NCBI RefSeq assembly: GCF_039655775.1
Contig: NZ_JBBYXJ010000002.1
Coordinates: forward strand, 1,240,001-1,304,000
Direction of reading: 5' to 3'
Source of the DNA: Iodidimonas sp. SYSU 1G8
Lineage (GTDB): Bacteria > Pseudomonadota > Alphaproteobacteria > SMXS01
DNA length: 64,000 bases
Numbering within the stretch: the first letter of the stretch is position 1; each line of letters starts with the position of its first letter. The notes below the pieces were generated by a model. It saw only the letters and a program-made list of their open reading frames with translations. It made no database searches and had not been told where the DNA came from. Shown here in pieces: positions 1,684 to 28,677 of the stretch. A program made the position numbers and the translations under genes.

Positions 1684-1688
1684 CCCAT

Positions 1689-2125: not shown

Positions 2126-2134
2126 TCCTATAAT
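2126..2134 (+). promoter_or_regulatory. TCCTATAAT flagellar promoter box, flgI
   Basis: The box TCCTATAAT is preceded by a T/A-rich stretch (AAAAAGCTT) and lies 38 nt upstream of the flgI ATG. The same 8-9-mer occurs before seven other flagellar transcription units in this window. There is no TTGACA-like -35 and no sigma-54 -24/-12 element here. Confidence 0.7.
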
Positions 2135-2172
2135 GATTTTGTAACTGAGCGACCGCGGATCGGGGCTGAATC

Positions 2173-3276
2173 ATGCGTTTTCCGACTATGCTGACCGCCA
2201 TGCTGTGCGGCGTCCTCGCGTTCTCGGCAGTCCTTCCGGTCCAGGCGGCGACGCGGATCAAGGACATCGTCGACATCCAGAACGTCCGCAGCAACCAGCT
2301 GGTCGGCTACGGCCTGGTGGTCGGCCTGGCCGGCACGGGAGACCGGATCCGCAACGCGCCGTTCACCGAGGAATCCATGCAGGCCATGCTGGAGCGCATG
2401 GGCGTGAATATTCGCGGCACCCAGATGCGGACGCAAAACATCGCCGCCGTGTCCGTGACCGCGACCATGCCGCCCTTTGCCCGCGCCGGCTCGCGGATCG
2501 ATGTCCAGGTGTCGGCGATCGGCGATGCCACGAGCCTGCAGGGCGGGACCCTGATGGTGTCGTCGTTGCGCGCGCTCGATGGCGAAATCTATGCCGTGGC
2601 TCAGGGGCAGATCGCGGTGTCGGGTTTCAAGGCTCAGGGGGCCGGCGCCAGCGTCACGCGCGGGGTATCGACCTCCGGCCGTATCGCCGGCGGAGCGATC
2701 ATCGAGCGTGAGGTTCAGTTTGCCCTCAAATCCTCCGCGTCCCTGAAGCTGGCGCTCAAGAACCCTGACTTCACCACCGCACGACGCGTCGCCGAGGTCA
2801 TCAACCGCGAGTTTCCCGGCGCCGCCGAAGTGCTGGACCCGACGACGGTGGAGATCACGCCGGCGACGGGCTCGGTCGTCGAACTGATGGGCGCCGTTGA
2901 AAATCTCAGCGTGGACGTCGACCAGCCCGCGCGGATCATCATCAACGAGGCGTCCGGCACGGTCGTGATGGGCAAGGATGTCAAGGTCAGCCCCGTCGCG
3001 ATCGCCCAAGGGGGGTTGACCATCAGCGTCACGGAAAGCCCCGCCGTCTCGCAGCCGGCGCCCTTTTCGGACGGCGAGACCGTCGTCGTGCCGCGCAGTC
3101 AGATTTCGGTCGATGACGGCTCCGGCCGGTCGCTGGCCATGCTGGATCGGGGCGAGTCCCTCCGGTCGCTGGTCGGCGGCCTGAACGCCCTGGGCGTCAG
3201 CCCCCGCGACCTGATCACCATTCTCCAGGCGCTCAAATCAGCGGGCGCCATCCAAGCCGAAATCGAGGTGCAGTGA
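2173..3276 (+). CDS. flgI: Flagellar P-ring protein FlgI
   Basis: FlgI forms the periplasmic P-ring, the bushing around the rod in the peptidoglycan layer. The 367-aa protein has a Sec signal peptide (cleavage near VQAATR, residue 23) followed by the hallmark start of mature FlgI, RIKDIVDIQNVRSNQLVGYGLVVGLAGTG. Internal family motifs (QSMLERMGVN-like, SRIDVQVSAIGDATSLQGG) and the C-terminal SVDDGSG...LRSLVGGLNALGVSPRDLITILQALK are intact. It is first in a three-gene operon and its stop overlaps the flgJ start. Confidence 0.97.
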   Translation: MRFPTMLTAMLCGVLAFSAVLPVQAATRIKDIVDIQNVRSNQLVGYGLVVGLAGTGDRIRNAPFTEESMQAMLERMGVNIRGTQMRTQNIAAVSVTATMPPFARAGSRIDVQVSAIGDATSLQGGTLMVSSLRALDGEIYAVAQGQIAVSGFKAQGAGASVTRGVSTSGRIAGGAIIEREVQFALKSSASLKLALKNPDFTTARRVAEVINREFPGAAEVLDPTTVEITPATGSVVELMGAVENLSVDVDQPARIIINEASGTVVMGKDVKVSPVAIAQGGLTISVTESPAVSQPAPFSDGETVVVPRSQISVDDGSGRSLAMLDRGESLRSLVGGLNALGVSPRDLITILQALKSAGAIQAEIEVQ

Positions 3277-3566
3277 TGGACATGCCCGTTGTCTCCGCCG
3301 CGTCCGTGGCGGCCCAGTCCAAAACCGGCACCCAGCTGGAACAAACCGCGCGGGAGTTCGAGGGTGTGTTCCTGGGCCAGCTCACCCGTCTGATGATGGA
3401 AACGCTGGAGACCGGCGAGTTCGGCGGCGGCCATGGCGAAGAAATGTTTCGCGGCGTGCTGGCCGAGCAACTCGGCAATGAGATGTCACGGCGCGGCGGC
3501 ATCGGCCTTGCGCCGGTCGTGCTCGAGCAGATGATCCGCATGCAGGAGAGCGGCAGCAATGGTTGA
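3276..3566 (+). CDS. flgJ: Rod-binding protein, FlgJ N-terminal type
   Basis: This 96-aa protein corresponds only to the rod-capping half of FlgJ; the muramidase domain of enterobacterial FlgJ is absent, as is usual in alphaproteobacteria. The family signature is visible as AREFEGVFLGQLTRLMMETLETGEFGGG and EEMFRGVLAEQLGNEMSRRGGIGLAPVVLEQMIR. Either GTG 3273 or ATG 3276 could start it; ATG is preferred because it overlaps the flgI stop in a TGATG arrangement. Its likely role is to help rod polymerisation in the periplasm. It overlaps the following gene by 8 bp. Confidence 0.9.
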   Translation: MDMPVVSAASVAAQSKTGTQLEQTAREFEGVFLGQLTRLMMETLETGEFGGGHGEEMFRGVLAEQLGNEMSRRGGIGLAPVVLEQMIRMQESGSNG

Positions 3567-3981
3567 CGACATCATTGACCAGATCGTATCCCTTTCCGGC
3601 CTGATGGCGGACGAAACCGCCGCGCTGCGGCGCCATGGGCCCTTCCCCGCGCAGCAGGAAATCGCGGCGGCGAAGATGTTGCTGGCGAGCGGTCTTGACG
3701 CGGCCTTGTCCCGTATGGGCGGCACGGCATCCGCCTGGATACAGGGGCTGGACGAGGCCGACGGCGCGCGTCTCACGGCCGCGCTCGAGGCGCTGAGTGT
3801 CGCCGGTAACGAGAACGCCGCCATGCTGCGCCGGCACATCGAGCTTTCCAACGAACTGATGGCGGCGATCACCAACGAGGTGCGCCGCGTATCGGGAAGC
3901 CGCAGCGCGACCTATACCGCGGCCGGCCGCCTGTCGCAGACCGACATTCCGACGCCGATCTCGATCAACTCCGGCATCTGA
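3559..3981 (+). CDS. FlgN-like flagellar export chaperone candidate
   Basis: The 140-aa protein is predicted to be almost all helical and soluble. Its pattern (LSGLMADETAALRRHG..., a central LRRHIELSNELMAAITNEV helix and a Tyr/Ser-containing tail SATYTAAGRLSQ) is like FlgN-type chaperones for hook-associated proteins, which often follow flgJ. Translational coupling to flgJ (8-bp overlap) supports a flagellar role. The FlgN assignment is by pattern and context only, since this family is poorly conserved. Confidence 0.6.
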   Translation: MVDDIIDQIVSLSGLMADETAALRRHGPFPAQQEIAAAKMLLASGLDAALSRMGGTASAWIQGLDEADGARLTAALEALSVAGNENAAMLRRHIELSNELMAAITNEVRRVSGSRSATYTAAGRLSQTDIPTPISINSGI

Positions 3982-4014
3982 CACCGGAGCCTTCCGGACC
4001 CGGGCCGGGACGGC

Positions 4015-4437
4015 TTACACGCCGCCCCGGCCCGTCGCCGTTTTCAGCAACGACATCTGCTTGCGATAAAGGTTGGTCAAGGCGGTGAAATCCGCCTGGA
4101 CCTGAGCCATTTTCAGCAACTGGTCCTCGATGGTCACGTTGTTGCCGTCCGGTTTCGTTTCGCTGGTATGCTGATCCAGCATGGTCGCGCCATTTTCCGG
4201 CGCGCGCGCGCCCATCGCCGCCATGCCCTCGCTGAGGCGAACATGGGGCCTGGGGACGTGAACTTCCGACCCGGACTGGGACGCGACAAGCGCGCCGAAA
4301 TCCGGGGCCTCCACGTCGCGCGCCTTGTAGCCCGGTGTTTCGCTGTTGGCGATATTCTGGGCAATGGTCCGCTGACGTTCGGAGAGGTGCCGCATGGCAA
4401 GGCCGATGCCGTTCAGCAAGGCGGGGGTGTCGGACAT
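4015..4437 (-). CDS. flgB: Flagellar proximal rod protein FlgB
   Basis: FlgB is a proximal-rod component assembled on the MS ring. The 140-aa protein shows the rod-family N-terminus (RHLSERQRTIAQNIANSETPGYKARD) and the C-terminal ALTNLYRKQMSLLKTATGR helix. The start is at ATG 4437 (MSDTPALLNG); a longer in-frame reading extends into the neighbouring gene and has no family similarity. In many flagellar clusters flgB and flgC are adjacent. Here flgC lies 24 kb away and flgB instead follows the FlaEY-like gene on the minus strand. A GC-rich hairpin (about 4001-4034) spans its stop codon. Confidence 0.93.
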   Translation of the reverse strand: MSDTPALLNGIGLAMRHLSERQRTIAQNIANSETPGYKARDVEAPDFGALVASQSGSEVHVPRPHVRLSEGMAAMGARAPENGATMLDQHTSETKPDGNNVTIEDQLLKMAQVQADFTALTNLYRKQMSLLKTATGRGGV

Positions 4438-4451
4438 GAAAAGTGCCTTTC

Positions 4452-7091
4452 TCAGCTTGCCGTCAGTGCCGAAAGACGCGTCAGCGCCGCCTGGTACTGA
4501 TCCAGCTGGGTCTGTTGCCTGGACGTCAGTGAATAGCCGGTCACGCCATCCACAAGATTGGCCTTGGTCGCATCCCAATAAAGCGAGCGATAGGCGGTCT
4601 GACTGGTCGAGAGGGCCGCCAGCACGCTCTTGAGCGCTCCTTTGGCGGCGTCGGCCGTATCGAGCGAAAGGGATGTGCTCAGTCCCAGACCGAAGCGCCC
4701 GCCGGGTTCGACCTTGGGGGCGCCGGATGCGCGCGGCGCGGGATTTGCCAGGCGTGTCGGGGCGAGCCCCAGCTTGCCCAGCGCATCCTTGCCGTCGGCG
4801 CCGGCGATCAGTTCCACCGGATATCCGCGAACCGCGTCGATCTTCAACGCCAGTGTGTCGCCCGAGCGCCAGGTACTGGCCTTGACCCGGTTCCACGTGA
4901 CCAGGCTGATGCATTTGGCGAGGCTGGCCAGGGTATCGTCGGCTTCGATGGTGATCTTTCGGGTCACGCCGCCAACCCTGATCTTGAATTCATCTCCGGC
5001 GCGAAGACTTGTCAGGCTCACCAGATCAGCGGCCGGGACGGGGTTCAGGACGCCCCGGTGCAAGCCAAGCGCACCCGTCACGCCGCCGCCGCCGATCCCG
5101 GCCGATAGACGGACCGGTGCGGCGGTGACGCCGCGCTGACCAAACTGGGTGACGTCGGCGAGGGCGCCGGTCGCGGGATCGACCTTGCCGATGAAGCCGT
5201 CGACCGTTCCCTGGGGCTCACCGCTCAAGGCGCCGGTCGTTCGGCCGGCGGCATAGAGCGCATCGCCGATGAAGGCCAGGCTGTCGATCTCGTCCGTGCC
5301 GCCAGTGCCGACATGCTGAAGGGAGGCCAGGGAAAAGGCGCCATCGATCCGGGCAATGAAGCCGTCCCGGCCACCCGAGGCTCCCTGCGCGACGGCGCCG
5401 CCGATGGCGACCGTGCCGTCTGGCGCGATGGCCATCACGCGGGCGTCGACGGTACCGAGATCCACCAGTGCCGATTCCGTCGTCAGGGCACCGGCGTCCA
5501 GCCGGCGCAGGGTGGACGTCCCATTGCCGCGGGCGAGCACGAGCAGGGCGCCGTCGCCGTCGATCGCCAGCGCGCTGACCGTGTCCGGTCCCGCGCCGCC
5601 AAACAGGCGCTTTTCCTTGACGGCGCCGCTGCCGTCCAGCCGGGCGAGGAAGGCGTCCGATTCAAGATCACCGCTGCGTCCGCCGACGAAGATCGAGCCA
5701 TCCTGGCCCACGGTCACGGCACGAGCCTCCTGATTGCCGAGCAGATGGAGGGAGGTCGCGAAGCGTTCCTCGCCGTCCTCGTCATAGCGGGCAACCACGA
5801 TATCGGTCTGTGCCACGCCGGTCGCGCTGATGTTGCCGGCGACCACGATGCCGCCGTCCGGCGCCAACGCGACCGACGCGCCTTGCGCCGCGCCGGCCAT
5901 GCCGAGCGTCCGCTGCCAGACCGTGCGACCTTCGCTGTCCAATTTGGTCAGGAAGAGGTCGGAGGCGGTATCGACCCGATTGGCGCCGAGGTCGCCGGAG
6001 GACGTGCCGACCATGTAACTGAAGCCGTCCGGCGCCGTGACGATGGCCCTGGCGTCGAGCGCGGCCGATACCGGCGTGGCTTTGGAATCCTTCAGCTGGA
6101 CAGCCTCTGTCGCGGGCCGGTTCGTTGCCGAGAGGGTGCCGAGCATGGTGCGGGTGAACGCACCAGCCGGATCGTCATACCGCAACAGCCGGACGGTTCC
6201 GCTTGCGCCCGTCTGCGTTTCTCCCGCGGCGACGACCAGGGTATCGGGCGCAGCAACCTGGTCCAGCGCGACGCGCTCGCTTGGCGGTGCCTGAAGGGCA
6301 AGGCCCCATTTCCCATCATGTTTCTCGACGGCAAAGCGCGCCGTGTAGCGGGACAGGGGCGCGCCGCCCGCGTCGGTCACGACGGCGCCCGATGAATCCC
6401 GCTGCGGTATCGAGGCGATGGCCGCGTTCAGGGCATTCGCCACCGTATCGAGCGTGGGCGGTTGCGGCGCGGATGACAGGTCGATGTCGATGCTGTCGGC
6501 GGTGCTGCCGCGGGTGAGGGCAACGCGCAGCACTTCGGTACCGGAGAGACCTGCCAGGGGAGCATCGCGCTGTTCGCTGACTCCATCGCCAAGGGTGGTC
6601 ATGCTCGCTGGCGGAAGGTCCACGGCCAGCGATTTGGCGGACCGTTCCGGCATGTTGAACGAAAGCAGCAAGGCGTCCGTCGGCGCGGCGGCCAGAAAAG
6701 TCCGCAGGTCGGCAAGTCCTTTGGAGAAGGTCTTGCTCAGCGCGGCGCGCTCTCCCGCGGAGCGCGTCGAACTGGCGGCGGTGTCCGCCAGGAGCCGCAG
6801 GCGGTCGAGCGCCTTGTAGGTCACGAAGGCGGTCTGGATGTCGGCGGGCAGGCTGGTATCGACCTTGTCGATGAGCGACGCGCGTTGCTTGATCGCCGCG
6901 ACCTGCGACGACACGGGTTGAGTGGCCGCCGTCTCCTTCCAGGGTGGCGTGGTCGCGGGCGTCGTGAACGCGGCCTTCGCCTTGCGAACGGCGAGGCTTT
7001 CGACCGCGGGGGCGCTGGTGGATGAAAGAGTCACGGCGCCGCCGGACAGGAGCGTCAGGCCGATCTGGCTGTTCAGATAAGTGCTCGTCAT
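4452..7091 (-). CDS. FlaEY-like flagellar protein: beta-propeller between flagellin-IN-like motifs
   Basis: This 879-aa protein resembles what is annotated as regulatory protein FlaEY in alphaproteobacteria; that link is from memory. Residues 1-140 are helical. Near 185-235 and 690-730 are two flagellin-IN-like motifs (VLRVALTRGSTADSIDIDL...LDTVANALNAAI; GDEFKIRVGGVTRKITIEADDTLASLAKCI). Between them (about 340-640) lie six or so propeller-like repeats of the type DGSIFVGGRSGDL...DAFLARLDGSG. The C-terminus (GYSLTSRQQTQLDQYQAALTRLSALTAS) is amphipathic helix, like axial flagellar proteins. No signal peptide is visible, so export by the flagellar type III system is plausible. It is divergent from fliG and 14 nt upstream of flgB. 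Confidence 0.65.
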   Translation of the reverse strand: MTSTYLNSQIGLTLLSGGAVTLSSTSAPAVESLAVRKAKAAFTTPATTPPWKETAATQPVSSQVAAIKQRASLIDKVDTSLPADIQTAFVTYKALDRLRLLADTAASSTRSAGERAALSKTFSKGLADLRTFLAAAPTDALLLSFNMPERSAKSLAVDLPPASMTTLGDGVSEQRDAPLAGLSGTEVLRVALTRGSTADSIDIDLSSAPQPPTLDTVANALNAAIASIPQRDSSGAVVTDAGGAPLSRYTARFAVEKHDGKWGLALQAPPSERVALDQVAAPDTLVVAAGETQTGASGTVRLLRYDDPAGAFTRTMLGTLSATNRPATEAVQLKDSKATPVSAALDARAIVTAPDGFSYMVGTSSGDLGANRVDTASDLFLTKLDSEGRTVWQRTLGMAGAAQGASVALAPDGGIVVAGNISATGVAQTDIVVARYDEDGEERFATSLHLLGNQEARAVTVGQDGSIFVGGRSGDLESDAFLARLDGSGAVKEKRLFGGAGPDTVSALAIDGDGALLVLARGNGTSTLRRLDAGALTTESALVDLGTVDARVMAIAPDGTVAIGGAVAQGASGGRDGFIARIDGAFSLASLQHVGTGGTDEIDSLAFIGDALYAAGRTTGALSGEPQGTVDGFIGKVDPATGALADVTQFGQRGVTAAPVRLSAGIGGGGVTGALGLHRGVLNPVPAADLVSLTSLRAGDEFKIRVGGVTRKITIEADDTLASLAKCISLVTWNRVKASTWRSGDTLALKIDAVRGYPVELIAGADGKDALGKLGLAPTRLANPAPRASGAPKVEPGGRFGLGLSTSLSLDTADAAKGALKSVLAALSTSQTAYRSLYWDATKANLVDGVTGYSLTSRQQTQLDQYQAALTRLSALTAS

Positions 7092-7123
7092 CGGCGCTTT
7101 CGCGGCCTTTCAATAAAAACCTT

Positions 7124-7132
7124 TCCTATAAT
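7124..7132 (+). promoter_or_regulatory. TCCTATAAT flagellar promoter box, fliG
   Basis: TTTCCTATAATATAG lies 54 nt upstream of the fliG start and only about 35 nt from the divergent FlaEY-like start. The sequence CTATAATATAG is nearly self-complementary, so the same element might serve both directions. Confidence 0.7.
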
Positions 7133-7186
7133 ATAGCATGAACGAGCCGCGCACGCGGCGCAGGCTGAACTTTTGGGGGCCAGTGC

Positions 7187-8221
7187 ATGTCCATGCTGAC
7201 GCCGGTCGGCGAGCCGATCGAAATGAAACGATACACGGGGCCTCAGCGCGCGGCGGCGCTGATGCTGGCTCTGGGCAAGGACCACGGCGCACCGATATGG
7301 GCGCAGTTGTCGGTGGAGGAAATCAAGGAACTCTCCTCGGCCATCGCCCAACTGGGCCGCGTGCCGGCCACGGTCGTCGAACATCTCCTCGTCCGCTTCA
7401 CCGGCGAGTTGAGCGGCCGGAGTTCGCTGCATGGCTCCTTCGATTCCGTCGAGCGCCTGCTGGATGGCGTTGTTCCGGAAGACCGCGTGAAGGAGATCAT
7501 GGAAGACATTCGCGGTCCGTCCGGCCGGACCATGTGGGACAAGCTGTCGAACGTGAACGAGAACGTGCTCGCGGCCTATCTCAAGCACGAATATCCGCAA
7601 ACCATCGCGGTCATCGTCCACAAGTTGAGCTCGGATCACGCCGCCCGCGTGCTCGCCGCGCTGCCGCGCGAGCTGTCGGTGGACGTGGTGATGCGCATGC
7701 TGCGGATCGACACGGTGCAGAAGGAGATCATCCAGCAGGTCGAGGACACGCTGAAGCACGAGTTCATGAGCAATCTTTCACGCGCCCAGCGCCGCGATCC
7801 GTTCGAGACCATGGCGGAGGTGTTCAACGCCCTCGACCGGTCGACCGAGGAGCAGATGCTCGGCGCCCTCGACGAGGCGGCGCCCGATGCCGCCGCGCGC
7901 ATCCGCGCGCTCATGTTCACCTTCGAGGATTTGGCCAGCCTGATGCCGAAATCGATCCAGGTGATCGTGAAGAACGCGGACAAGCGCGAAATCGCGCTCG
8001 CGCTGAAGGGCGCGACGGACGAGATGAAGCAGGTGTTCTTCGCCGGGATGACGGAACGCGCGGCCAAGCTGCTGCGGGACGACATGGCGGCCATGGGACC
8101 GGTACGGGCGCGAGAGTGCGAGGAGGCGCAGAGCAGCCTCGTGCGTCTTGCCAAATCGCTCGCGGACCGGCGGCAGATCCTGCTCGTCGATCCAAAAGCC
8201 GAAGAGTCGATGATCTATTGA
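7187..8221 (+). CDS. fliG: Flagellar motor switch protein FliG
   Basis: FliG is the C-ring component that transmits torque from the stators and links to FliF. The 344-aa length is normal. Visible features are the N-terminal RAAALMLALGKDHGAPIWAQLS, the middle-domain EHPQTIAVI-like segment (KHEYPQTIAVIVHKLSSDHAARVLAALP) and the C-terminal torque region with charged residues (FTFEDLASLMPKSIQVIVKNADKREIALALKGA ... SERAAKLL-like MTERAAKLLRDDMAAMGPVRAREC). It is the first gene of a fliG-fliH unit behind its own TCCTATAAT box. Confidence 0.96.
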   Translation: MSMLTPVGEPIEMKRYTGPQRAAALMLALGKDHGAPIWAQLSVEEIKELSSAIAQLGRVPATVVEHLLVRFTGELSGRSSLHGSFDSVERLLDGVVPEDRVKEIMEDIRGPSGRTMWDKLSNVNENVLAAYLKHEYPQTIAVIVHKLSSDHAARVLAALPRELSVDVVMRMLRIDTVQKEIIQQVEDTLKHEFMSNLSRAQRRDPFETMAEVFNALDRSTEEQMLGALDEAAPDAAARIRALMFTFEDLASLMPKSIQVIVKNADKREIALALKGATDEMKQVFFAGMTERAAKLLRDDMAAMGPVRARECEEAQSSLVRLAKSLADRRQILLVDPKAEESMIY

Positions 8222-8254
8222 TGCGCGCAGCGCGCGGCAACGGAAAGGCCACCG

Positions 8255-8971
8255 ATGAATATTGTCAGCCGGATCGAACAGTTTGATTTTGGCCGTGTCT
8301 TTACCGGTCTGCCCGAATTGCCGGGCGCGCCGGACGGCTGTGATCGCGACCTGACGCGGCAGCTTCTCGACCTTCAGTCGGAGCTGGAAAGGCTCCGGTC
8401 GGATCATCGGGCGGAACTGGCCGTCGTCCGCGCGGAAGCGTTCCAGGCCGGGCTTGACCAGGCCCGGCGGGAAACCGAGATGGCGACGCTTCAGGCCGTG
8501 GACGCGGTGCAGGCCGAACTGGAACAGATGGCGGGCGCCCAGGAGGCGGTGACCGCGGCGCTGACACGGGATGCGGCGGAACTGGCCCTGGTGGCGGCGG
8601 ACGTTCTGGCGGGCTGGGCTCTCGATGTCCGGCCGGCCGAGGCCATCGAGCAGGCGGTGTCGCGGATCATCGGCCGCGAAGCGCGCGGGCGGCGGATCGA
8701 GATCAGGGTCCATCCCGACCTCGTGGCGCCGATCCGCGAACGGCTGGCGGCAGAGCCGGCGGATGGAGCGGAACAGACGCGCCTCGTTGTGCTGGCTGAT
8801 GCGGCCCTTTCCCGCGGTGACGCGCGCGTCAGCTGGGATCTCGGCGGTCTGGTGCTCGATGCCGCGGCACGGCGGGACGCCATCCTCGCCGAACTGGCGC
8901 CGGTGCTCGATCCACCGCGCGACAGCGATGCCGCCATCGTGACGTCGCTGGCGGCCCGCCGCGCCGCCTGA
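8255..8971 (+). CDS. fliH: Flagellar export regulator FliH
   Basis: FliH binds and regulates the export ATPase FliI; fliI itself is not in this window. The 238-aa protein has a glutamate/alanine-rich coiled-coil middle (about residues 35-100) and a C-terminal globular part containing ADVLAGWALDVRPAEAIEQAVSRIIG and IRVHPDLVAPIRERLAA, plus the characteristic RLVVLADAALSRGDARVSWDLGGLVLD, which corresponds to the FliH/SctL double-psi-like motif. It follows fliG by 33 nt. The two are likely cotranscribed. Confidence 0.85.
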   Translation: MNIVSRIEQFDFGRVFTGLPELPGAPDGCDRDLTRQLLDLQSELERLRSDHRAELAVVRAEAFQAGLDQARRETEMATLQAVDAVQAELEQMAGAQEAVTAALTRDAAELALVAADVLAGWALDVRPAEAIEQAVSRIIGREARGRRIEIRVHPDLVAPIRERLAAEPADGAEQTRLVVLADAALSRGDARVSWDLGGLVLDAAARRDAILAELAPVLDPPRDSDAAIVTSLAARRAA

Positions 8972-8975
8972 TCAT

Positions 8976-9012
8976 CCACCCGGCAAATATTTCCCACCCG
9001 GCAGAACTTTCC
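8976..9012 (+). repeat. Tandem 19-bp direct repeats upstream of fliF
   Basis: Two copies, CCACCCGGCAAATATTTCC at 8976-8994 and CCACCCGGCAGAACTTTCC at 8994-9012, match at 16 of 19 positions with an 18-bp period. They lie between the fliH stop and the fliF TCCTATAAT box. The arrangement suggests activator sites, FlbD being the obvious candidate. A related GGCAAATTCTTCC precedes the flgC box. Confidence 0.6.
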
Positions 9013-9023
9013 GGCTCACGTTA

Positions 9024-9032
9024 TCCTATAAT
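9024..9032 (+). promoter_or_regulatory. TCCTATAAT flagellar promoter box, fliF
   Basis: ATCCTATAAT precedes fliF by about 40 nt and follows the tandem repeats. It is one of the eight matching boxes in the window. Confidence 0.7.
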
Positions 9033-9070
9033 TTTGTTGCAGGCCATCGGCCCTCGTCAACGAAGGAAGC

Positions 9071-10702: not shown

Positions 10703-10712
10703 GAGAGCGATC

Positions 10713-11063
10713 ATGACCGAGCAGATGCCAACCGCCGATGCGCTGGAAAATCCCAAGCCCGTCCTTCCCGACCTTGGGGCGGCCCCCGAGCACGCTGAAC
10801 CGGCGCCCGAGAGTGACGCGGCCGAGAGCCTGAAGGCGGTCTATGACGTGCCGATCCGGGTACAGGCCGTACTGGGCCGCTCACGCATGGATATCAGTAC
10901 ACTGATGCGGCTGCGCTCGGGCGATGTGGTCGAGTTGGACCGCCGCGTCGGGGAACCCGTCGATATTCTTGTCAACAACCGGATGATCGCCCGAGGCGAA
11001 GTGGTGCTGATCGATGGCCGGCTGGGCGTGACCCTGACCGAGGTCGTGAAGCAGGAACGCTGA
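10713..11063 (+). CDS. fliN: Flagellar motor switch protein FliN
   Basis: This is a C-ring switch component. The 116-aa protein has an acidic N-terminal extension (about 40 residues) and a SpoA/FliN domain: YDVPIRVQAVLGRSRMDISTLMRLRSGDVVELDRRVGEPVDILVNNRMIARGEVVLIDGRLGVTLTEVV. It starts 10 nt after fliF and its stop overlaps the flbD ATG. A second, shorter SpoA protein is encoded at 28,368-28,601, so the motor may contain two FliN-type subunits. Confidence 0.94.
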   Translation: MTEQMPTADALENPKPVLPDLGAAPEHAEPAPESDAAESLKAVYDVPIRVQAVLGRSRMDISTLMRLRSGDVVELDRRVGEPVDILVNNRMIARGEVVLIDGRLGVTLTEVVKQER

Positions 11064-18715: not shown

Positions 18716-18754
18716 CTCGTTGTCGGCGACTTGCCGTCCGGCGCGAGGAACCAA

Positions 18755-19937: not shown

Positions 19938-20299
19938 GCAAACTGATCCTGACCGTGGATGATTCCGCGAGCATGCGCATGCTCCTTCGCGCGTCGCTGA
20001 CAGCGCAGGGGTTTCGTATCGAAAGCGCCAATGACGGCGCTCACGGACTGGAGCGCATGCGCGTCTGCCAGCCTGATCTGCTGATCACGGACATCAACAT
20101 GCCGATCATGGATGGGTTCGAGCTCATCGAGGCGGTTCGCCGCGAAGCGGCTTTCCGAGGCGTGCCCATCCTGGTCCTCTCCACGGAATTCTCCGATGAA
20201 AAGAAGGCCCGTGCCCGCACCGCCGGCGCGACGGGTTGGATTACCAAGCCTTTCGACGCCGACAAGCTCGGCGCCGCGATCCGCAAGGTGTGTCCATGA
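19934..20299 (+). CDS. cheY: CheY-type response regulator (first copy)
   Basis: This is a single-domain receiver of 121 aa. It has the acidic pocket (TVDDS), the phospho-acceptor aspartate in LLITDINMPIMDG, the Ser in VLSTEFSDE and the Lys in ITKPFDADKL. The GTG start overlaps the STAS stop and its own stop overlaps the cheA ATG. A second CheY is encoded at 24,771, so one may act on the motor and the other as a phosphate sink. Confidence 0.94.
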   Translation: MSKLILTVDDSASMRMLLRASLTAQGFRIESANDGAHGLERMRVCQPDLLITDINMPIMDGFELIEAVRREAAFRGVPILVLSTEFSDEKKARARTAGATGWITKPFDADKLGAAIRKVCP

Positions 20300-22371: not shown

Positions 22372-22856
22372 CGACGACCACGCAAACCCCGGGCGACCGC
22401 AAGATCGTCACCTTTTCGCTGGATCACCAGTCGTTCGGCATCGACATGCGTTCGCTGATCGAGATCCGCGAGTGGGAAGAGCCGACGCCGCTGCCGGGCG
22501 TGCCGAGCTATATTCTCGGCGTCACCAACCTTCGCGGGACCGTGGTTCCGGTCATCGGCCTGGCGGAAAGGCTTGGCTGGAGGCCCAGCACGATCCATTC
22601 CCGATCCTGCCTGCTGGTCGTGAACCTGGCGGGCAAGCAGGCCGGCTTCCTGGTCGATGAAGTCGCCGACATCGTTCTGATCCATGACCAGGAAATCCAG
22701 CCGGCGCCGGATATCGAGATCGGCGAGCCGGCCATCATCAGCGGACTGGTGAAGGTGCAGGAGCGGTCCGTCAGCGCCAATGACAACGGCAAGATGGTCC
22801 TGCTGCTCGACCTCGAAGCGCTGGGCATCTCTCGGGTCATGGACAACGCGGCGTGA
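22368..22856 (+). CDS. cheW: Chemotaxis coupling protein CheW
   Basis: CheW links CheA to chemoreceptors. The 162-aa protein shows the whole domain: IVTFSLDHQSFGIDMRSLIEIREWEEPTPLPGVPSYILGVTNLRGTVVPVIGLAERLG and a C-terminal SGLVKVQERS...MVLLLDLEAL. It overlaps cheA by ATGA and cheR by GTGA, which indicates tight translational coupling. Confidence 0.96.
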   Translation: MTTTTQTPGDRKIVTFSLDHQSFGIDMRSLIEIREWEEPTPLPGVPSYILGVTNLRGTVVPVIGLAERLGWRPSTIHSRSCLLVVNLAGKQAGFLVDEVADIVLIHDQEIQPAPDIEIGEPAIISGLVKVQERSVSANDNGKMVLLLDLEALGISRVMDNAA

Positions 22857-23740
22857 CTCACGATCCCGTCATGGACAGCGCGCAGGCCTTGCAGCAGGCG
22901 TTCAACGTCGAGGTCACGAAAAGCGACTTCGCTGAAATCGCCGCGCTCATGCAGCACGAGGCGCGCATTCACCTGGCCGAAACCAAGATCGCCCTGGTGC
23001 ACTCGCGTTTGTCCAAGCGGGTGCGCGAACGCGGCCTGACGCGGTTCTCGGACTACGTGGCGCTGGTGAAGAAGGACAAGGAGGAGCTGTCGCGCATGGT
23101 GGTCGCGCTGACCACCAACCACACGCATTTCTTTCGCGAGGCGCACCATTTCGACCATCTGCGGCAAGTCGTGATGCCGGAGTTGAAGGCGCATGCCGAG
23201 GAGGGGCGGCCCGTCCGCATCTGGTCGGCCGGTTGTTCGAGCGGCGAGGAAGTCTACACCATCGCCATGTGCCTTCTGGGCCAGGATCGCGGCGCATCGA
23301 GCTGGGTACGGCAGGGCGACGTCAAACTCCTGGCCACCGATATCGCGCCCACCATGGTCAGCGCCACGCGGCGCGCGGTTTATACCGAGGCCATGGTGCA
23401 GCCGGTTCCCTCGGTCTACCGCAGTCTGTGGATGCAGCCCGAGGGCGAGGACTACGCCATGACCAGCGACGCGAAGAGCCTGGTCACCGCCAATGTCCTC
23501 AACCTGTTCGCGCCCTGGCCGCTGCGGCGGAAATACGACGTGATCTTCTGCCGCAACGTCATGATCTATTTCGACGACAAGGCGAAGATGGAGCTCGAGG
23601 CGCGTTTCGTGGATCTGCTCGCGCCCGGCGGTTATCTGTACATCGGCCATTCCGAAAGGCTGAACGGCGAGGCCGCCAGAGTGATGCAGCGCGCCGGACA
23701 GACCGTGTTCGTCAAGCCGGCCGGAGGCCTCGCGGCATGA
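22853..23740 (+). CDS. cheR: Chemoreceptor methyltransferase CheR
   Basis: CheR uses S-adenosylmethionine to methylate receptor glutamates. The 295-aa protein has an N-terminal helical domain, the THFFREAHHFDHL motif, the SAM-binding loop WSAGCSSGEEVYTIAM, LATDIAPTMVSATRRAVYTE and the FCRNVMIYFDDKAKMELEARFVDLLAPGGYLYIGHSE signature. GTG 22853 overlaps the cheW stop; ATG 22871 is an alternative start. The DWRNF tail of the MCP at the left edge is a possible docking site. Confidence 0.96.
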   Translation: MTHDPVMDSAQALQQAFNVEVTKSDFAEIAALMQHEARIHLAETKIALVHSRLSKRVRERGLTRFSDYVALVKKDKEELSRMVVALTTNHTHFFREAHHFDHLRQVVMPELKAHAEEGRPVRIWSAGCSSGEEVYTIAMCLLGQDRGASSWVRQGDVKLLATDIAPTMVSATRRAVYTEAMVQPVPSVYRSLWMQPEGEDYAMTSDAKSLVTANVLNLFAPWPLRRKYDVIFCRNVMIYFDDKAKMELEARFVDLLAPGGYLYIGHSERLNGEAARVMQRAGQTVFVKPAGGLAA

Positions 23741-24762
23741 CCGACCCGGTACGCGTGATGATCGTGGACGACAGCGCCGCCATGCGCGCCACCCTGCGCC
23801 GATTGCTCTCGTCAGACCCGGAGATCGAGGTTGTCGGCATGGCGCCGGAGACCCGGACCGCGAGAAGCATGATCAAGGAGTTGAACCCCGACGTGCTGAC
23901 TCTCGACATCGAGATGCCGGGGATGGACGGTCTGTCGTTCCTCGAGAAGATCATGACCCTGCGGCCCATGCCGGTGATCATGTGCTCGACACAGACGGCG
24001 CGGGGCGCGAAGGCGACCATTGAAGCGCTGCGCCTTGGCGCCGTGGACTGTTTCGCCAAACCGTCCGGAGACCCGGCCGAAATCGCCAGCGAAGGCGAGC
24101 GCTTGCGCCGCATGGTCAAGGCGGCCGGGCGCTCGGCCCTGCTGCGCCCCGTGGTTTCGGCCACGAGCGTCATCAAGCCCCAGGGTCAGACGCAGCGTGA
24201 TGTGGTCATCGCCATCGGTGCGTCGACGGGCGGCGTCGAGGCGCTGTTCAGGCTGCTGCGGGTCTTTCCCGCCGATTGCCCGCCCGTGCTCGTGGTGCAG
24301 CATATGCCGCTGACCTTCACGGGGGGATTTGCCGAACGCCTGTCGCAGGAGTGCCAGGCGCACGTCGTCGAGGCCCAGCAAGGCATGGCGCTGAAGCGCG
24401 GTACGATCTTCATCGCCCCGGGGACCAGGACCCATATGGAACTGGCGGGCGGCCTGAAGGGGCGAATCCGGTTGCGCGACGGCGATCTGGTCAGCGGGCA
24501 TCGCCCGTCGGTCGACATCCTGTTCCATTCCGTCGCCAAGCTGGGGGCGAACGGTATCGGCGTCATTCTGACCGGCATGGGCCGCGATGGCGCCGAAGGC
24601 CTGAAGGCCATGCGTGACGCCGGCGCCCGGACCTTCGGTCAGAACGAGGCGAGCTGCGTCGTCTACGGCATGCCAAAGGCGGCCTGGGAACTGGGCGCCG
24701 TCGAGCGCGAGATGAGTTTGTTTACCATGCCCGAGGCCATCCTCGCGGCGTGCCGCAAGTAG
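23737..24762 (+). CDS. cheB: Chemotaxis methylesterase/deamidase CheB
   Basis: CheB is a phosphorylation-activated receptor methylesterase of 341 aa. The N-terminal receiver has MIVDDSAAM and DVLTLDIEMPGMDGLSFLEKIM. The C-terminal catalytic domain has the triad in IGASTGGVEAL (Ser), VVQHMPLTFTGGFAERL (His) and GVILTGMGRDGAEGLKAMRDAGA (Asp). The start at 23737 overlaps the cheR stop. A longer frame starting inside cheR is not credible. Confidence 0.96.
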   Translation: MTDPVRVMIVDDSAAMRATLRRLLSSDPEIEVVGMAPETRTARSMIKELNPDVLTLDIEMPGMDGLSFLEKIMTLRPMPVIMCSTQTARGAKATIEALRLGAVDCFAKPSGDPAEIASEGERLRRMVKAAGRSALLRPVVSATSVIKPQGQTQRDVVIAIGASTGGVEALFRLLRVFPADCPPVLVVQHMPLTFTGGFAERLSQECQAHVVEAQQGMALKRGTIFIAPGTRTHMELAGGLKGRIRLRDGDLVSGHRPSVDILFHSVAKLGANGIGVILTGMGRDGAEGLKAMRDAGARTFGQNEASCVVYGMPKAAWELGAVEREMSLFTMPEAILAACRK

Positions 24763-24770
24763 AGGGACAC

Positions 24771-25160
24771 ATGCCAGCAGCAGCAGCCATCAAGGTTATG
24801 GTCGTGGACGACCAGACGAGCATGCGCGCCATGATCCGCCGGAGCCTCCAGGACATCGGATTCAAGGATATCCGCGACAGGCCCGCGGCGTCCGAGGCGC
24901 TGTCGGCGGTCCGGTCCGATCGGGTCCATCTGATCATCTCCGATTACAACATGCCGGAGATGGATGGGCTGCAGTTCCTGGAGGCCGTGCGGGGCGATCC
25001 TGTGATCGGCAAAACGGTCTTCATCATGCTGACGGGCTCCGCCGACCGCGAAATTGTCCAGCGGGCCGCCGCCCTGGGCGTCAACAACTACATCGTCAAG
25101 CCTTTCGCGCCGGCCGCGCTCAAGGAGAAGATCGAACGCGTCTTCGGCGAGCTGACCTGA
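24771..25160 (+). CDS. cheY: CheY-type response regulator (second copy)
   Basis: This 129-aa receiver has VMVVDDQTSMRAMIRRSL, the acceptor aspartate in LIISDYNMPEMDGLQFLEAV, Thr in IMLTGSADRE and Lys in YIVKPFAPAALKEKIERVF. ATG 24771 has an AGAGGGA ribosome site, so it is preferred to GTG 24750. It sits between cheB and cheD. Confidence 0.94.
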   Translation: MPAAAAIKVMVVDDQTSMRAMIRRSLQDIGFKDIRDRPAASEALSAVRSDRVHLIISDYNMPEMDGLQFLEAVRGDPVIGKTVFIMLTGSADREIVQRAAALGVNNYIVKPFAPAALKEKIERVFGELT

Positions 25161-25162
25161 GC

Positions 25163-25690
25163 ATGCCCCCGCGCCGCATCAATATCATGCAGGGCGAACA
25201 CTGCGTCATGTCGGACCCGCAGGTCATCATTACAACCTTGCTCGGCTCCTGCGTGGCCGTGTGTCTCTATGACAGCGTTGCCCATGTCGGCGGGATGAAC
25301 CACTTCCTGCTGCCGCAGCCGCGGATGGATACCCATGTCGAAAAGGCGGAGATGCAGCGCTACGGGGTGCACGCCATGGAACTGCTCATCAACGAAATGA
25401 TGAAGCAGGGCGCCGCACGCCCGAGACTGCGCGCGCACCTCTATGGCGGCGCGAACATCTTTTCGGGTCTTGGCGGGATCGGAACCGCGAATGGCGACTT
25501 CGCCCGTCAGTTCATGACGACGGAAGGTATTCCCATCGGCCACGCCGAACTGGGCGGCCGCCTCGCCCGGAAGGTGGAGTTTCAGCCTTATGAAGGAAAA
25601 GTCCGCTCCAGTGTGGTCGCCGACACGCCCGCGCCCGTGGCACAGCCGCTTCCGGTCAAGACGTCCGGTGGCGATCTCGAACTCTTCTGA
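25163..25690 (+). CDS. cheD: Chemoreceptor glutamine deamidase CheD
   Basis: CheD deamidates receptor glutamines and can interact with CheC-type phosphatases. The 175-aa protein has the catalytic Cys in TTLLGSCVAVCLYD, the His in GGMNHFLLPQP, and the LYGGANIFSGLGGIG and GRLARKVEFQPYEGKVR segments. The start is 2 nt after the cheY stop. Confidence 0.94.
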   Translation: MPPRRINIMQGEHCVMSDPQVIITTLLGSCVAVCLYDSVAHVGGMNHFLLPQPRMDTHVEKAEMQRYGVHAMELLINEMMKQGAARPRLRAHLYGGANIFSGLGGIGTANGDFARQFMTTEGIPIGHAELGGRLARKVEFQPYEGKVRSSVVADTPAPVAQPLPVKTSGGDLELF

Positions 25691-25736
25691 TGGCCCACCG
25701 GTGCCACAATCTCAGACAACAGATGGATTGCTCGTG

Positions 25737-26035
25737 ATGAACAAGCCGCTCAGAGACAACCCCGTGCAGGCACACATGCACGTCGCCATCGCCGAGGAGA
25801 TGCGGGACCTTCGTGGCCTGATCGAAACGCTGGCCGAAACGTTGGTGCAGGACGAGCGTTTCGTCATCGAGTACGTCTCGCAGCTGCAGGTCTTCGACCT
25901 CATCGTCCAGCGGCTGGACGAAAGCGCCAATCTGCTCGACCGCATGGCGCACGGCGCCTCCGTCAGCGATGTGCTCGCCAATGTCAGGCTGTCCATGGTG
26001 CAGACGCGTCTGCGCGATGCCGTGATGCAGGGCTG
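25737..26035 (+). CDS. Small helical protein with a CheZ-like D-x-x-x-Q motif
   Basis: The 99-aa protein (from ATG 25737; GTG 25701 is a possible longer start) is predicted to be one long helical hairpin: AEEMRDLRGLIETLAETLV, then YVSQLQVFDLIVQRLDESANLLDRM, then VSDVLANVRLSMVQTRLRDAVM. Asp54 and Gln58 in FDLIVQ reproduce the D-x-x-x-Q spacing of the catalytic pair of CheZ phosphatase, in a helix of similar pattern. No other phosphatase of CheY-P (CheZ, CheC, CheX) is seen in the operon. The function is therefore inferred from context; I do not recognise the family with certainty. Confidence 0.6.
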
Positions 26036-26040
26036 ATCCC

Positions 26041-26883
26041 ATGCGCGGTGACGACGACAGACCCAAGATCATCATCCGCAAGGTCAAGAAGGGCGGCCAT
26101 GAAGGGCATCATGGCGGTGCATGGAAGGTCGCCTATGCCGACTTCGTGACGGCCATGATGGCATTCTTTCTGCTGCTCTGGCTGGTATCGAGCCCGGATG
26201 ACGCGCGGTTGAAGGGACTGGCCGAGTATTTCTCGCCAGAGCCCCCGAGCGTGACCTCGGGCAGCAATGGGGCAAAGATTCCCATGCCCAGTCCGGCGTC
26301 CCGCGCCAGTGGCAATACCAACGCCAGCCTGGAGGCAGCGCCGCCGCGCACCGTGGGGGCTTCGCGGGGCGGATCGGCCAACGTTCCAGAGGCGGCCCTG
26401 CGGGTCATGGCTCAGGAGATGAAGATCGCCATCGATGCCCTGCCAGAGGTCAAGGAGAGTCCGGACAGCGTCCATGTGGAGGCGGCCCAAGAGGGCATCC
26501 GGATCACCCTGATGGACACGGACAAGCGCGCCATGTTTCGCGGCACGACCGCGCAGTTGAACGATTACGCGCGGCGCATGCTCGCCAGCGTCGCCCGCAA
26601 GCTCCGGGACTCGCGGGCGCAGATCGCCATCGAGGGTCACACCGACTCCGTGGGCGGGCAGAGCGAGTTCAACTGGCGGCTGTCCGCCGAACGCGCCTTG
26701 TCGGCGCGCGCCGCGATGGCCGAAGCCGGATTATTGCCTGATCGCTTCGCCGAGATCGTGGCGATGGCCGGCTCGCGTCCCGTTTACCCTGACCAACCGG
26801 AACGCCCGGAAAACCGACGGATCACCATCGTGGTTCTCGCCGAGGCCGCGTCACTGCCCAGCGACGTCAGCTTCCAGTTCTGA
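26041..26883 (+). CDS. motB: Flagellar stator protein MotB
   Basis: MotB anchors the stator to peptidoglycan and supplies the proton-binding aspartate. The 280-aa protein has a basic N-terminus (IIIRKVKKGGHEGHHGGAWKVAYADFVTAMMAFFLLLWLVSS) whose single TM contains the conserved Asp in AYADF. A plug/linker follows, then an OmpA-like C-terminal domain (IAIEGHTDSVGGQSEFNWRLSAERALSARAAMAEAG). It is separated from motA by the whole che operon but on the same strand. Confidence 0.96.
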   Translation: MRGDDDRPKIIIRKVKKGGHEGHHGGAWKVAYADFVTAMMAFFLLLWLVSSPDDARLKGLAEYFSPEPPSVTSGSNGAKIPMPSPASRASGNTNASLEAAPPRTVGASRGGSANVPEAALRVMAQEMKIAIDALPEVKESPDSVHVEAAQEGIRITLMDTDKRAMFRGTTAQLNDYARRMLASVARKLRDSRAQIAIEGHTDSVGGQSEFNWRLSAERALSARAAMAEAGLLPDRFAEIVAMAGSRPVYPDQPERPENRRITIVVLAEAASLPSDVSFQF

Positions 26884-26890
26884 GACTCCC

Positions 26891-27346
26891 ATGAGCAAGA
26901 TCGTCCTGCCCGTTATCATTCTGGTGCTTGGCCTCGGGACAGGGGCCGGCGCAAGTCTGGGTACGAGTGTTCTGCTGATGCACGGTAGAGCGGCGCCGGC
27001 AGTCGCCAAGCCAGTTTCACCGGACGCCACCGCCAAGTCCGTCTTCGTGCCCGTGGGCGCCGTGAAGGCTCCGGTGGTGTTCGAAGATGGCCGGCTGGCC
27101 GGCTACGTCGTGTTCAACGTCCAGCTGGAAGTGCCGGAAACCCGGGAGGCCGATGTAACGGCGGCTCTGCCCTTGTTGCTGAACGCGATCAATATGCGCA
27201 CGTTCAAGACGCCCATGGCTCAGAGCCCGGACGGCCGTATTCCCGATCTGGATGTGTTTCGGACGCTGGTCGTGGAGGCCGGGGCCGAGGCGTTCGGCCA
27301 TGACGTCGTAAGACGGGCGCTGATCACCGAAGTGGGCGCGGTGTGA
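26891..27346 (+). CDS. FliL-like membrane-anchored protein
   Basis: The 151-aa protein has one N-terminal TM (VLPVIILVLGLGTGAGASLGTSVLL) and a periplasmic domain of about 100 residues with alternating strands (GRLAGYVVFNVQLEVPET...ADVTAALPLLLNAINMRTF...LDVFRTLVVEAGAEAFGHDVVRRALITEVGAV). The topology, size and place just after motB fit FliL, which supports stators. Sequence identity to FliL is not obvious by eye. A 9-bp hairpin (27,334-27,357) overlaps its stop and separates it from the convergent fliP. Confidence 0.55.
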   Translation: MSKIVLPVIILVLGLGTGAGASLGTSVLLMHGRAAPAVAKPVSPDATAKSVFVPVGAVKAPVVFEDGRLAGYVVFNVQLEVPETREADVTAALPLLLNAINMRTFKTPMAQSPDGRIPDLDVFRTLVVEAGAEAFGHDVVRRALITEVGAV

Positions 27347-27359
27347 GAACCGCGCCCCG

Positions 27360-28097
27360 CTAGCCGAAGCTGCGGATCAGCGAGCCGGCAACCAGTGCCC
27401 ACCCATCTACGAGAACGAAGAAGATGATCTTCATGGGCAGGGAAATGGTGGGCGGGGGCAGCATCATCATGCCCATGGCCATCAGGACGGCTGATACCGC
27501 CAGATCGATGATGAGAAACGGCAGCAGGAGCATGAAGCCGATCTCGAAAGCCCGGCGCAATTCCGAGATCATGAAGGCGGGCGCCAGCGTGGTCAGCGGC
27601 AAGTCGGCGCGTTTGGCCACCGGCTTGCCCGACAGCTCGACGAACAGCCTGACGTCGTCTTCCCGGACCTGGCGCAGCATGAAGGTACGAAAGGGCGCGG
27701 TTGTCCGGATGAAGGCCTCTTCCTCGGTGATCGTACCCGCGTTGTAGGGGGCGACTCCCTCTTTCCAGGCCGCCTCGAACGTCGGCGCCATGACGAAGAA
27801 CGAGAGGAACAGCGCCAGGCTGATGATGACAGGATTGGGCGGTACGCCCGGTGCGCCAATCCCCGAGCGCAGCAAGGAAAGCGCCACGACGATGCGGGTA
27901 AAGGATGTGACCGTCATCAGGATCCCGGGAGCCAGACTAAGGACGGTAAGCAGCAGTACCAGCTGGATCGCGCGTCCCGAGACGCTGCCGTCGCCGAGAT
28001 CGATGGTCGTGCCGGCGGCGAACGCGGCGGAAGGCAGCGCGGCACAGGCAAACGCCGCGCAGGCCCGGATGGCCCATCTCGTGGATCTGGTCATCAT
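27360..28097 (-). CDS. fliP: Flagellar export gate protein FliP
   Basis: FliP is the core of the FliPQR export gate in the inner membrane. The 245-aa protein has a cleavable signal peptide (cleavage near AFAAG) and four TM segments. The family signatures are present: TSFTRIVVALSLLR, PPNPVIISLALFLSFFVM, TLAPAFMISELRRAFEIGFMLLLPFLIIDLAVSAVLMAMGMMMLPP and KIIFFVLVDGWALVAGSLI. It overlaps fliO by ATGA. FliQ and FliR are encoded on the other strand nearby. Confidence 0.97.
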   Translation of the reverse strand: MMTRSTRWAIRACAAFACAALPSAAFAAGTTIDLGDGSVSGRAIQLVLLLTVLSLAPGILMTVTSFTRIVVALSLLRSGIGAPGVPPNPVIISLALFLSFFVMAPTFEAAWKEGVAPYNAGTITEEEAFIRTTAPFRTFMLRQVREDDVRLFVELSGKPVAKRADLPLTTLAPAFMISELRRAFEIGFMLLLPFLIIDLAVSAVLMAMGMMMLPPPTISLPMKIIFFVLVDGWALVAGSLIRSFG

Positions 28098-28366
28098 TTT
28101 TCTCCGAGGCCGTTTCCGGGCTGGATCAGCAGTGTTCCCTCGGGACCGACGAGAACCAGATGCTCGCGTGCGTCGCAGCGGAGCAGAAGGAGAACCCGCT
28201 TCTGGTCAACGGCAATGCGCTCGACCACCGCGAGGCGCCGTTCGCTGGCCGCGGCCCGGCCCGGCAGGCGCAGATCGAAGCGTCTGACCGCCCACAGGGC
28301 AAACATGAGCAGCCCGAGTACGACCCCGAGCGACCCGAGCATCCGCGCGATGGCGTAAAAATCCAT
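28094..28366 (-). CDS. fliO: Flagellar biosynthesis protein FliO
   Basis: FliO helps assemble the FliP ring. The 90-aa protein has one TM (MLGSLGVVLGLLMFALWAVRRF), then a small cytoplasmic domain with ERRLAVVERIAVDQKRVLLLLRCDAREHLVLVGPEGTLLIQ, the typical FliO beta-rich pattern. It lies between the short FliN and FliP with 1-nt and 4-nt junctions. Confidence 0.85.
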   Translation of the reverse strand: MDFYAIARMLGSLGVVLGLLMFALWAVRRFDLRLPGRAAASERRLAVVERIAVDQKRVLLLLRCDAREHLVLVGPEGTLLIQPGNGLGEK

Positions 28367-28367
28367 G

Positions 28368-28601
28368 TCAGCGGCCCTTCTGGGCGACGCCGGTCACTTC
28401 CAGCGACATCCGGTCGCCTTCGACCACGATCTTGCCTTCAGCGATCAGCTGGTCGTTCACATAGACGACGGTCGGGTCATCATGCCCGCAGTTCAGCGGG
28501 ATCATGGAGCCTCGGCCCATTTTCAGCATTTGCCGGATCGGCACGTCGGCGAAGCCGAGCACGATCGTCAGATCGACGGTAATGTCATCCAGTGCGGACA
28601 T
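28368..28601 (-). CDS. fliN: Short FliN/SpoA-domain protein
   Basis: This 77-aa protein is little more than a SpoA domain: DITVDLTIVLGFADVPIRQMLKMGRGSMIPLNCGHDDPTVVYVNDQLIAEGKIVVEGDRMSLEVTGV. It is upstream of fliO-fliP, the usual position of fliN in many bacteria. The longer copy at 10,713 sits in the fliF operon. It may be a second C-ring subunit or an export-related SpoA protein. It has its own TCCTATAAT box and a GGAG ribosome site. Confidence 0.88.
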   Translation of the reverse strand: MSALDDITVDLTIVLGFADVPIRQMLKMGRGSMIPLNCGHDDPTVVYVNDQLIAEGKIVVEGDRMSLEVTGVAQKGR

Positions 28602-28621
28602 AAGTGTCTCCTCTCGCCAAA

Positions 28622-28630
28622 ATTATAGGA
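28622..28630 (-). promoter_or_regulatory. TCCTATAAT flagellar promoter box, fliN-fliO-fliP
   Basis: On the minus strand TTTTTATCCTATAATTTTGG lies 21 nt upstream of the fliN start. It faces away from the flgC box, and the two are separated by a GC-rich palindromic stretch (GGCGCCGGCGCC). Confidence 0.7.
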
Positions 28631-28668
28631 TAAAAATGCCGAGGCGCCGGCGCCACTAGGCAAATTCT

Positions 28669-28677
28669 TCCTATAAG
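28669..28677 (+). promoter_or_regulatory. TCCTATAAG flagellar promoter box, flgC operon
   Basis: GGCAAATTCTTCCTATAAG lies about 35 nt upstream of flgC. It is the only one of the eight boxes ending in G. The preceding GGCAAATTCTTCC resembles the tandem repeats in front of fliF. Confidence 0.7.

Follow-up and report, generated by a model that had tools for sequence, protein, structure and literature searches.

Eight flagellar and chemotaxis transcription units in a 64-kb stretch of the Iodidimonas sp. SYSU 1G8 genome (contig NZ_JBBYXJ010000002.1, positions 1,240,001 to 1,304,000; this whole stretch of 64,000 nt is referred to as the window) are preceded by a nearly invariant box, TCCTATAA. With good confidence we interpret this box as the −10 of a class of promoters reserved for the flagellum and recognised by a divergent member of the sigma-70 family whose gene lies in the same flagellar island, with FlbD acting as a helper at a subset of them. 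Features of the sequences themselves are the box and its clustering in the island, the homology of the island protein to sigma factors, the co-occurrence of box and sigma gene, and the loss of sigma-54 motifs from FlbD. Coordinates given without a prefix refer to the window; C1 and C2 denote the two contigs of the genome.

Distribution of the box in the window and the genome

All eight boxes reported in a preliminary description of this DNA are present, against 0.09 copies expected from 100 dinucleotide shuffles of the window, none of which reached eight. They lie within positions 2126-28677, and the distance of 20-55 nt to a start codon given in that description is borne out, with 20-54 nt measured from the end of each box to the likely start codon of a flagellar or chemotaxis gene in the list of open reading frames (ORFs). 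Seven boxes read TCCTATAAT. On the plus strand these precede flgI (2126..2134, by 38 nt), fliG (7124..7132, 54 nt before its start at 7187), fliF (9024..9032, 38 nt before a GTG at 9071), a fliK-like ORF followed by flgD (14546..14554, 42 nt before 14597; the name fliK is taken over from the preliminary description and FlgD was assigned by Pfam) and motA at the head of the motA-che unit (18707..18715, by about 39 nt); on the minus strand they precede flaF (18580..18588, by 26 nt) and fliN-fliO-fliP (28622..28630, by 20 nt). The eighth, at 28669..28677 on the plus strand and 35 nt before flgC-fliE-fliQ-fliR-flhB, reads TCCTATAAG.

The whole genome (3.92 Mb) holds 20 copies of TCCTATAA, and the suggested genome-wide scan for enrichment at flagellar genes places 17 of them within one 48-kb flagellar island (C2:1220685-1268676; binomial P about 3e-30, given 48 kb out of 3.92 Mb) that has the flagellin gene, left of the window, at one end and flgC, inside the window, at the other. 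The backwards-read pattern of the box occurs 51 times in the genome. The statement that all copies are in the island is correct for the window and nearly so for the genome, where three boxes lie outside, all on C1 and one of them 14 nt before an ndk-like gene (named by eye). Boxes with T at position 9 are inside the island in 14 of 14 cases, and the consensus over the 17 island sites is TTW-TCCTATAAT. Fifteen of these 17 immediately precede flagellar, chemotaxis or island-conserved genes, the exception being a facing pair at C2:1227021-1227037 that has no clear target, with one member about 115 nt before a cysteine-protease-like gene. This pair (L022) reads TCCTATAATTTATAGGA; its two boxes nearly overlap and are flanked by two minus-strand genes.

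A sigma-like protein encoded in the island

Near flbT-fliI, between a protoglobin chemoreceptor gene and another chemoreceptor gene, the island carries a sigma-like gene at C2:1238741-1239835 (L022:18741-19835, plus strand), corresponding to window positions −1259 to −165, so that it ends 165 nt left of the window. The ORF comprises 364 amino acids, and the true start is probably residue 7. Weak but significant matches mark the product as a putative divergent member of the sigma-70 family: Pfam Sigma70_r2 scores 25.7 bits (cut-off 24; 9.9e-6), Sigma70_r4 23.9 bits, just under its cut-off of 24.1 (3e-5), and the NCBIfam sigma-70 superfamily model 39.8 bits, just under its cut-off of 42.9, and specific sigma families score far under theirs. 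Among the 13 region 2 matches in the genome that of the sigma-like protein is the weakest, and with the FliA/WhiG model TIGR02479 it reaches only about 30 bits against a cut-off of 189.6. A profile search of the PDB gave RpoS region 4 as best match (1.6e-5), from which no group assignment was made for the protein.

The fold assignment draws on the family models and on the rows of a structural aligner. The predicted structure, made with 44 family members in the alignment, has a mean predicted local distance difference test score of 80, with 94-98 over residues 1-100. Residues 2-113 of the model align to region 2 of sigma-E bound to the −10 strand (4lup; Z 10.3, root-mean-square deviation of 2.7 Å over 94 residues), and the rows listed by the aligner include sigma factors with matches spanning both domains at Z 9-12; the multi-domain rows have deviations above 12 Å, probably from a disordered linker. 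Over 84 aligned sequences (L111 was left out of the alignment), mean majority-residue conservation is 0.92 in region 2 vs 0.72 in region 4, with region borders set by us, and region 4 is visibly eroded in two aligned Novosphingobium members. A fixed region 2 together with a loose region 4 fits promoters that have a fixed −10 and no −35. By eye, region 2 contains a FliA-like IRG[AE] stretch with similar gap placement.

Co-occurrence of sigma gene and box in relatives

An alignment query of genome contigs found 113 relatives of the sigma, of which the best 80 were kept; together with four plasmids these give 84 loci, some from the same genome. A search of genome contigs with the single sequence gave no match, and searches of ten genomes of the order found the gene's own copy only. 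In 385 genomes of the class, with at most five candidates scored per genome, there were only weak matches of 25-39% identity, RpoH-like by eye where read, and phage and viral collections gave no match. All of the best 80 relatives carry sphingomonad titles save one uncultured bacterium. Plasmid orthologs at 52-55% identity occur in Sphingobium sp. V4, Sphingosinicella sp. BN140058 and Erythrobacter aureus, those of Sphingobium sp. V4 and E. aureus in the same kind of flagellar island, and a Sphingopyxis indica plasmid has a shorter relative at 36% identity. Flagellar genes, usually flgL-flgK-flgE, flbT-fliI and a flgJ-like gene, adjoin the sigma in 68 of the 84 loci. Seven copies away from flagellar genes (L123, L124, L129, L143, L154, L158 and L181) share a neighbourhood that looks housekeeping by eye, and several of the seven are in genomes that also have a flagellar copy.

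The box follows the flagellar copies: exact copies are present in the sigma-locus stretch of 58 of the 68 flagellar loci vs 2 of the 16 non-flagellar ones. In the 1.76 Mb around the sigma genes TCCTATAA is the most over-represented 8-mer (188 copies vs 8.8 expected from base composition) and the commonest of 560 permutations of its own letters; the reversed word is present 14 times. Of the 188 boxes, 107 lie at most 220 nt upstream of an island-type gene start, including 22 ahead of the sigma gene. Most flagellar sigma loci without an exact copy have variants of the flbT box, e.g., GCCTATAA and GCTATAA. Ten flagellar loci lack an exact box; in all four genomes followed among them, exact boxes precede other flagellar operons, in G398 and G405 on the contig of the sigma and in G402 and G426 on other contigs. 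As G426 has a second flbD gene, a second island may be the source of its boxes (the second copy was left out of the FlbD analysis below).

Counted over the eight of 17 genomes with a complete listing of matches, by hand and checked against table totals, 70 of 127 boxes lie in the sigma island (G390, 10 of 20; G407, 9 of 17; G417, 11 of 20; G420, 8 of 13; G425, 9 of 15; G427, 8 of 16; G422, 10 of 13; G401, 5 of 13). Seven of these eight genomes also have a FliA-like gene, which exceeds the curated cut-off in two and scores 158-176 bits in five, and provide an internal control, with 65 boxes in their sigma islands (8-11 each) and none within 50 kb of the FliA-like gene on its contig; this gene adjoins a second flhA in six of the seven, the six that were searched. 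A second control is flgI, where an exact box is found at most 300 nt upstream in eight of nine sigma-bearing genomes, the ninth having TTCTATAAG, and at none of 29 loci from other alphaproteobacteria, whose genomes had no sigma ortholog found. Comparison of homologous promoters, which had been proposed as a check, upholds the earlier suggestion of a flagellar regulon promoter class: the class is genuine and has been kept in many sphingomonads.

Promoter architecture

The preliminary description had noted that the boxes are without a recognisable −35, a sigma-54 −24/−12 or a sigma-28 −10, and we find none of these at the boxes either. There is no shared −35 over the 17 island sites, and no conserved column 16-18 bp upstream of TATAAT in these or in 68 non-redundant sites of relatives; activator-dependent promoters can lack a −35. 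A scan of 139 kb for TGGCAC-N5-TTGC with at most one mismatch found no sigma-54 element at any box. Where boxes read TCCTATAA, the sigma-28 −10 GCCGATAA is not found; the same 139 kb contain eight CCGATAA words, of which only one is at a flagellar promoter, that of flagellin (C2:1220672), outside the window. At this promoter (L021; C2:1220672-1220692, minus strand) the box reads TCCTATAAA and the CCGATAA word, sigma-28 −10-like, follows 11 nt on, in a genome where FliA was not found.

Upstream of several boxes a loose GGC-A/T-rich-TT stretch had been described, which is there at some promoters and which over related promoters becomes a palindrome, GGCAANNNTTGCC. Of 31 non-redundant flbT-group sites, 24 have the palindrome with at most two mismatches, in 19 of them with its centre at −34 to −36; in this group it is centred about 35 nt ahead of the box. 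It seems to resemble the ftr elements, the FlbD sites of Caulobacter, and is probably an FlbD site here. In the window, one such palindrome with one mismatch (8982..8994), centred 36 nt upstream of the fliF box, is a probable FlbD site, and a palindrome-like GGCAAATTCTTCC with two mismatches (28659..28671) lies between the divergent fliN and flgC boxes; across the whole window, matches with at most two mismatches are not above chance (26 found, 33.7 expected). An A stands at a fixed distance after the box in 27 of 31 flbT-group and 11 of 14 motA-group sites, and not in the other groups, and is possibly the start site.

FlbD and its loss of sigma-54 motifs

The island's FlbD (11063..12409, plus strand; 470 bits with NF050807, cut-off 750) has GAFEGA in place of GAFTGA and LYLRDI at the position of the Walker B DE. 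In a survey of 38 sigma-bearing genomes, 21 had an FlbD ortholog with an AAA+ domain and 17 had none. All 23 AAA+ orthologs examined (those of the 21 genomes, of E. aureus and of the window) lack the threonine of GAFTGA as well as the DE of Walker B, and nine of nine other bacterial enhancer-binding proteins, from nine other sigma-bearing genomes, keep both. The genomes without AAA+ FlbD (L146 left out) all have, 16 of 16, an ORF of 82-190 amino acids just upstream of flhA, in which the helix-turn-helix (HTH) is kept at 61-81% identity; in these 16 mini-FlbD ORFs (L215-L230) there is no AAA+ match and the HTH is of Fis type. Sphingobium sp. V4 has the same mini-FlbD with HTH between fliN and flhA (L184:18149-18595). 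From these substitutions and deletions, the FlbD proteins of the relatives examined are probably unable to act as sigma-54 activators. The box persists in genomes that have only mini-FlbD. Where the larger FlbD is present, 20 of 21 genomes contain the palindrome with at most one mismatch in the flgE-flbT stretch, as do 11 of the 17 that lack this FlbD; four of the 38 stretches exceed 1 kb, which makes a match easier there. No FliA was found in the Iodidimonas genome, in which the best TIGR02479 matches are taken to be RpoD and RpoH; of 26 genomes tested, 19 have a FliA-like gene, at 157-221 bits and in 12 cases over the cut-off, and in seven, this genome included, none was found.

Proposed mechanism and alternative explanations

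We infer recognition of the box by the sigma, the start sites, activation by FlbD and autoregulation from these relationships. The island sigma would bind core RNA polymerase, its region 2 would recognise TCCTATAA(T) as a −10 element, and a −35 would not be needed at box promoters. At a subset of promoters FlbD, having lost its sigma-54 machinery, would bind the palindrome, some 50 bp ahead of the transcription start, and assist there as an ordinary activator. The circuit would probably be self-reinforcing, because the sigma gene itself carries the box in many relatives.

Several observations weigh against this interpretation. Genetic linkage of sigma and box is no proof that one reads the other, and covariation between region 2 and box was not shown, a clade with a variant flbT box having practically the same region 2. 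The sigma gene of this genome has no exact box directly ahead of it. A Foldseek search of the PDB with the sigma model gave no match at E 0.001 or better, and the fold Z of 9-12 is modest, below the 13 that is common for helical models with the aligner. Sixteen of the 84 sigma loci are without nearby flagellar genes, so the family may have other roles, and 81 of the 188 sigma-locus boxes are not tied to a gene of the query set (among the 40 of these that were listed, many closely precede an ATG). E. aureus has only three exact boxes at island genes, several of its promoters having forms with one or two mismatches, and the 25 kb of its locus L250 contain no exact box. RpoN is present in this genome, so sigma-54 itself has not been lost.

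Of the two options given in the preliminary description, a sigma-70 −10 that depends on an activator and a variant flagellar sigma, the second is favoured by the sigma gene near flbT-fliI, found in relatives as well. TATAAT is a perfect sigma-70 −10, and the box could be a strong RpoD −10 made flagellum-specific by an activator, most likely FlbD as a non-sigma-54 regulator. The HTH of FlbD is kept despite the loss of its sigma-54 motifs, a palindrome or A/T tract lies about 35 nt upstream of many boxes, and regulators without GAFTGA are reported to act on sigma-70 promoters (PMC10274813). We nevertheless regard this explanation as improbable: TCC is as fixed as TATAA in the exact island set and in most promoters of relatives, and RpoD would not need TCC; the palindrome (at most two mismatches) is near the box at only six of the 17 own sites, with centres from −36 to −4, and at none of the 11 sigma and 14 motA non-redundant promoters; and a conserved sigma would be left without a role. 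Less probable still is that the box is no −10 at all and serves as an operator for another DNA-binding protein, such as the HTH protein at 16788-18095: such a protein (HTH_31/HTH_3) stands beside the sigma in many loci, often with the box between them, but the box is non-palindromic and its spacing to the start codons in the window is −10-like, and the E. aureus plasmid has boxes and sigma with no match to the HTH protein at E 1e-5 when searched. Chance, or common ancestry of duplicated upstream regions, has the shared word alone in its favour and is refuted by the box counts in the window, in the genome and around the sigma genes of relatives, by flanks that have nothing in common over the 17 sites beyond the box and weak A/T positions, and by an exact 8-mer kept in species with diverged proteins.

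Origin of the island

Over long alignments, the island's FlgI shares 72-80% identity with that of sphingomonad islands (86% across 156 residues) and at most 62% with other FlgI in the class sample; all four genomes that this sample contains from the same genus or family lack flgI. The host RpoD is 67-69% identical to those of nine sphingomonads and 72-74% to the best of several other families. Since the host RpoD is not sphingomonad-like, the island, its sigma included, was probably acquired by horizontal transfer. The evidence for transfer is thin, consisting of one marker, and the sigma is only 45-61% identical to its relatives. We lean, by a little, towards a portable regulon, in which the island with its private sigma and −10-only promoters moves among alphaproteobacterial lineages and on plasmids and could therefore be transcribed after arrival without the FliA, sigma-54 or flagellar regulators of the new host, and in which the switch to a private sigma freed FlbD, whose ATPase decayed and then was deleted. 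It offers an instance of a gene island possibly equipped with a transcription specificity of its own.

Other features of the window

The portion of the flagellar island within the window spans 1..31555. The HTH protein at 16788-18095 (plus strand; HTH_31/HTH_3 matches) is conserved in sphingomonad flagellar islands, often straight after the sigma and behind a box, and is possibly an extra regulator. Beside fliG, an ORF of 879 amino acids (4452-7091, minus strand) has only a weak beta-propeller match and is 46% conserved in the Sphingobium sp. V4 island.

Comparison with known systems

In the literature on flagellar sigma factors and promoters of sphingomonads and Novosphingobium, with subscription journals mostly outside the coverage, none of the papers in the short listings obtained described the box class or the sigma, and the evidence points to the island sigma as an undescribed candidate reader of the box. 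Like sigma-28 (FliA), it would be a dedicated flagellar sigma with a long fixed −10 word; the FliA −10, GCCGATAA as quoted in the preliminary description, equals TCCTATAA at six of eight positions. Unlike FliA, the island sigma scores poorly on TIGR02479 and its promoters have no common −35, and the FliA-like gene is a separate one where it occurs. For Sphingomonas sp. WG, PMC8921679 reports two clusters that yielded no FliA and proposes flagellar control as in Caulobacter, FlbD serving as the activator for sigma-54. The island sigma, together with its promoter word, is a candidate for the missing flagellar sigma. The clusters with FliA and FlgM in S. wittichii and Sphingopyxis granuli TFA, as described in PMC3238334 and PMC6472365, are a different set from the sigma island.

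FlbD, FlaF, FlbT and the alpha-type gene set of the island are shared with Caulobacter, in which FlbD keeps GAFTGA (PMC10274813). Unlike the Caulobacter sigma-54 hierarchy, FlbD here is without GAFTGA and the Walker B DE, or without AAA+, and no −24/−12 accompanies the boxes. In the same source, NtrC-type regulators without GAFTGA (Rhodobacter capsulatus NtrC, Caulobacter NtrC and VspR) are former sigma-54 activators reported to work at sigma-70 promoters. The FlbD proteins differ from these in that the 23 examined have also lost the Walker B DE and that 17 further records have no ATPase domain left, a series from degenerate to deleted that would illustrate the decay of a sigma-54 activator once another sigma takes its genes. 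Activation at a subset of the box promoters would have its nearest likeness in E. coli aer and trg, where CRP activates sigma-28 promoters from sites centred 49.5 bp upstream of the start (PMC2859248): with a start presumed 7 nt after TATAAT, the palindrome centre would likewise fall near −50, with another activator and another sigma.

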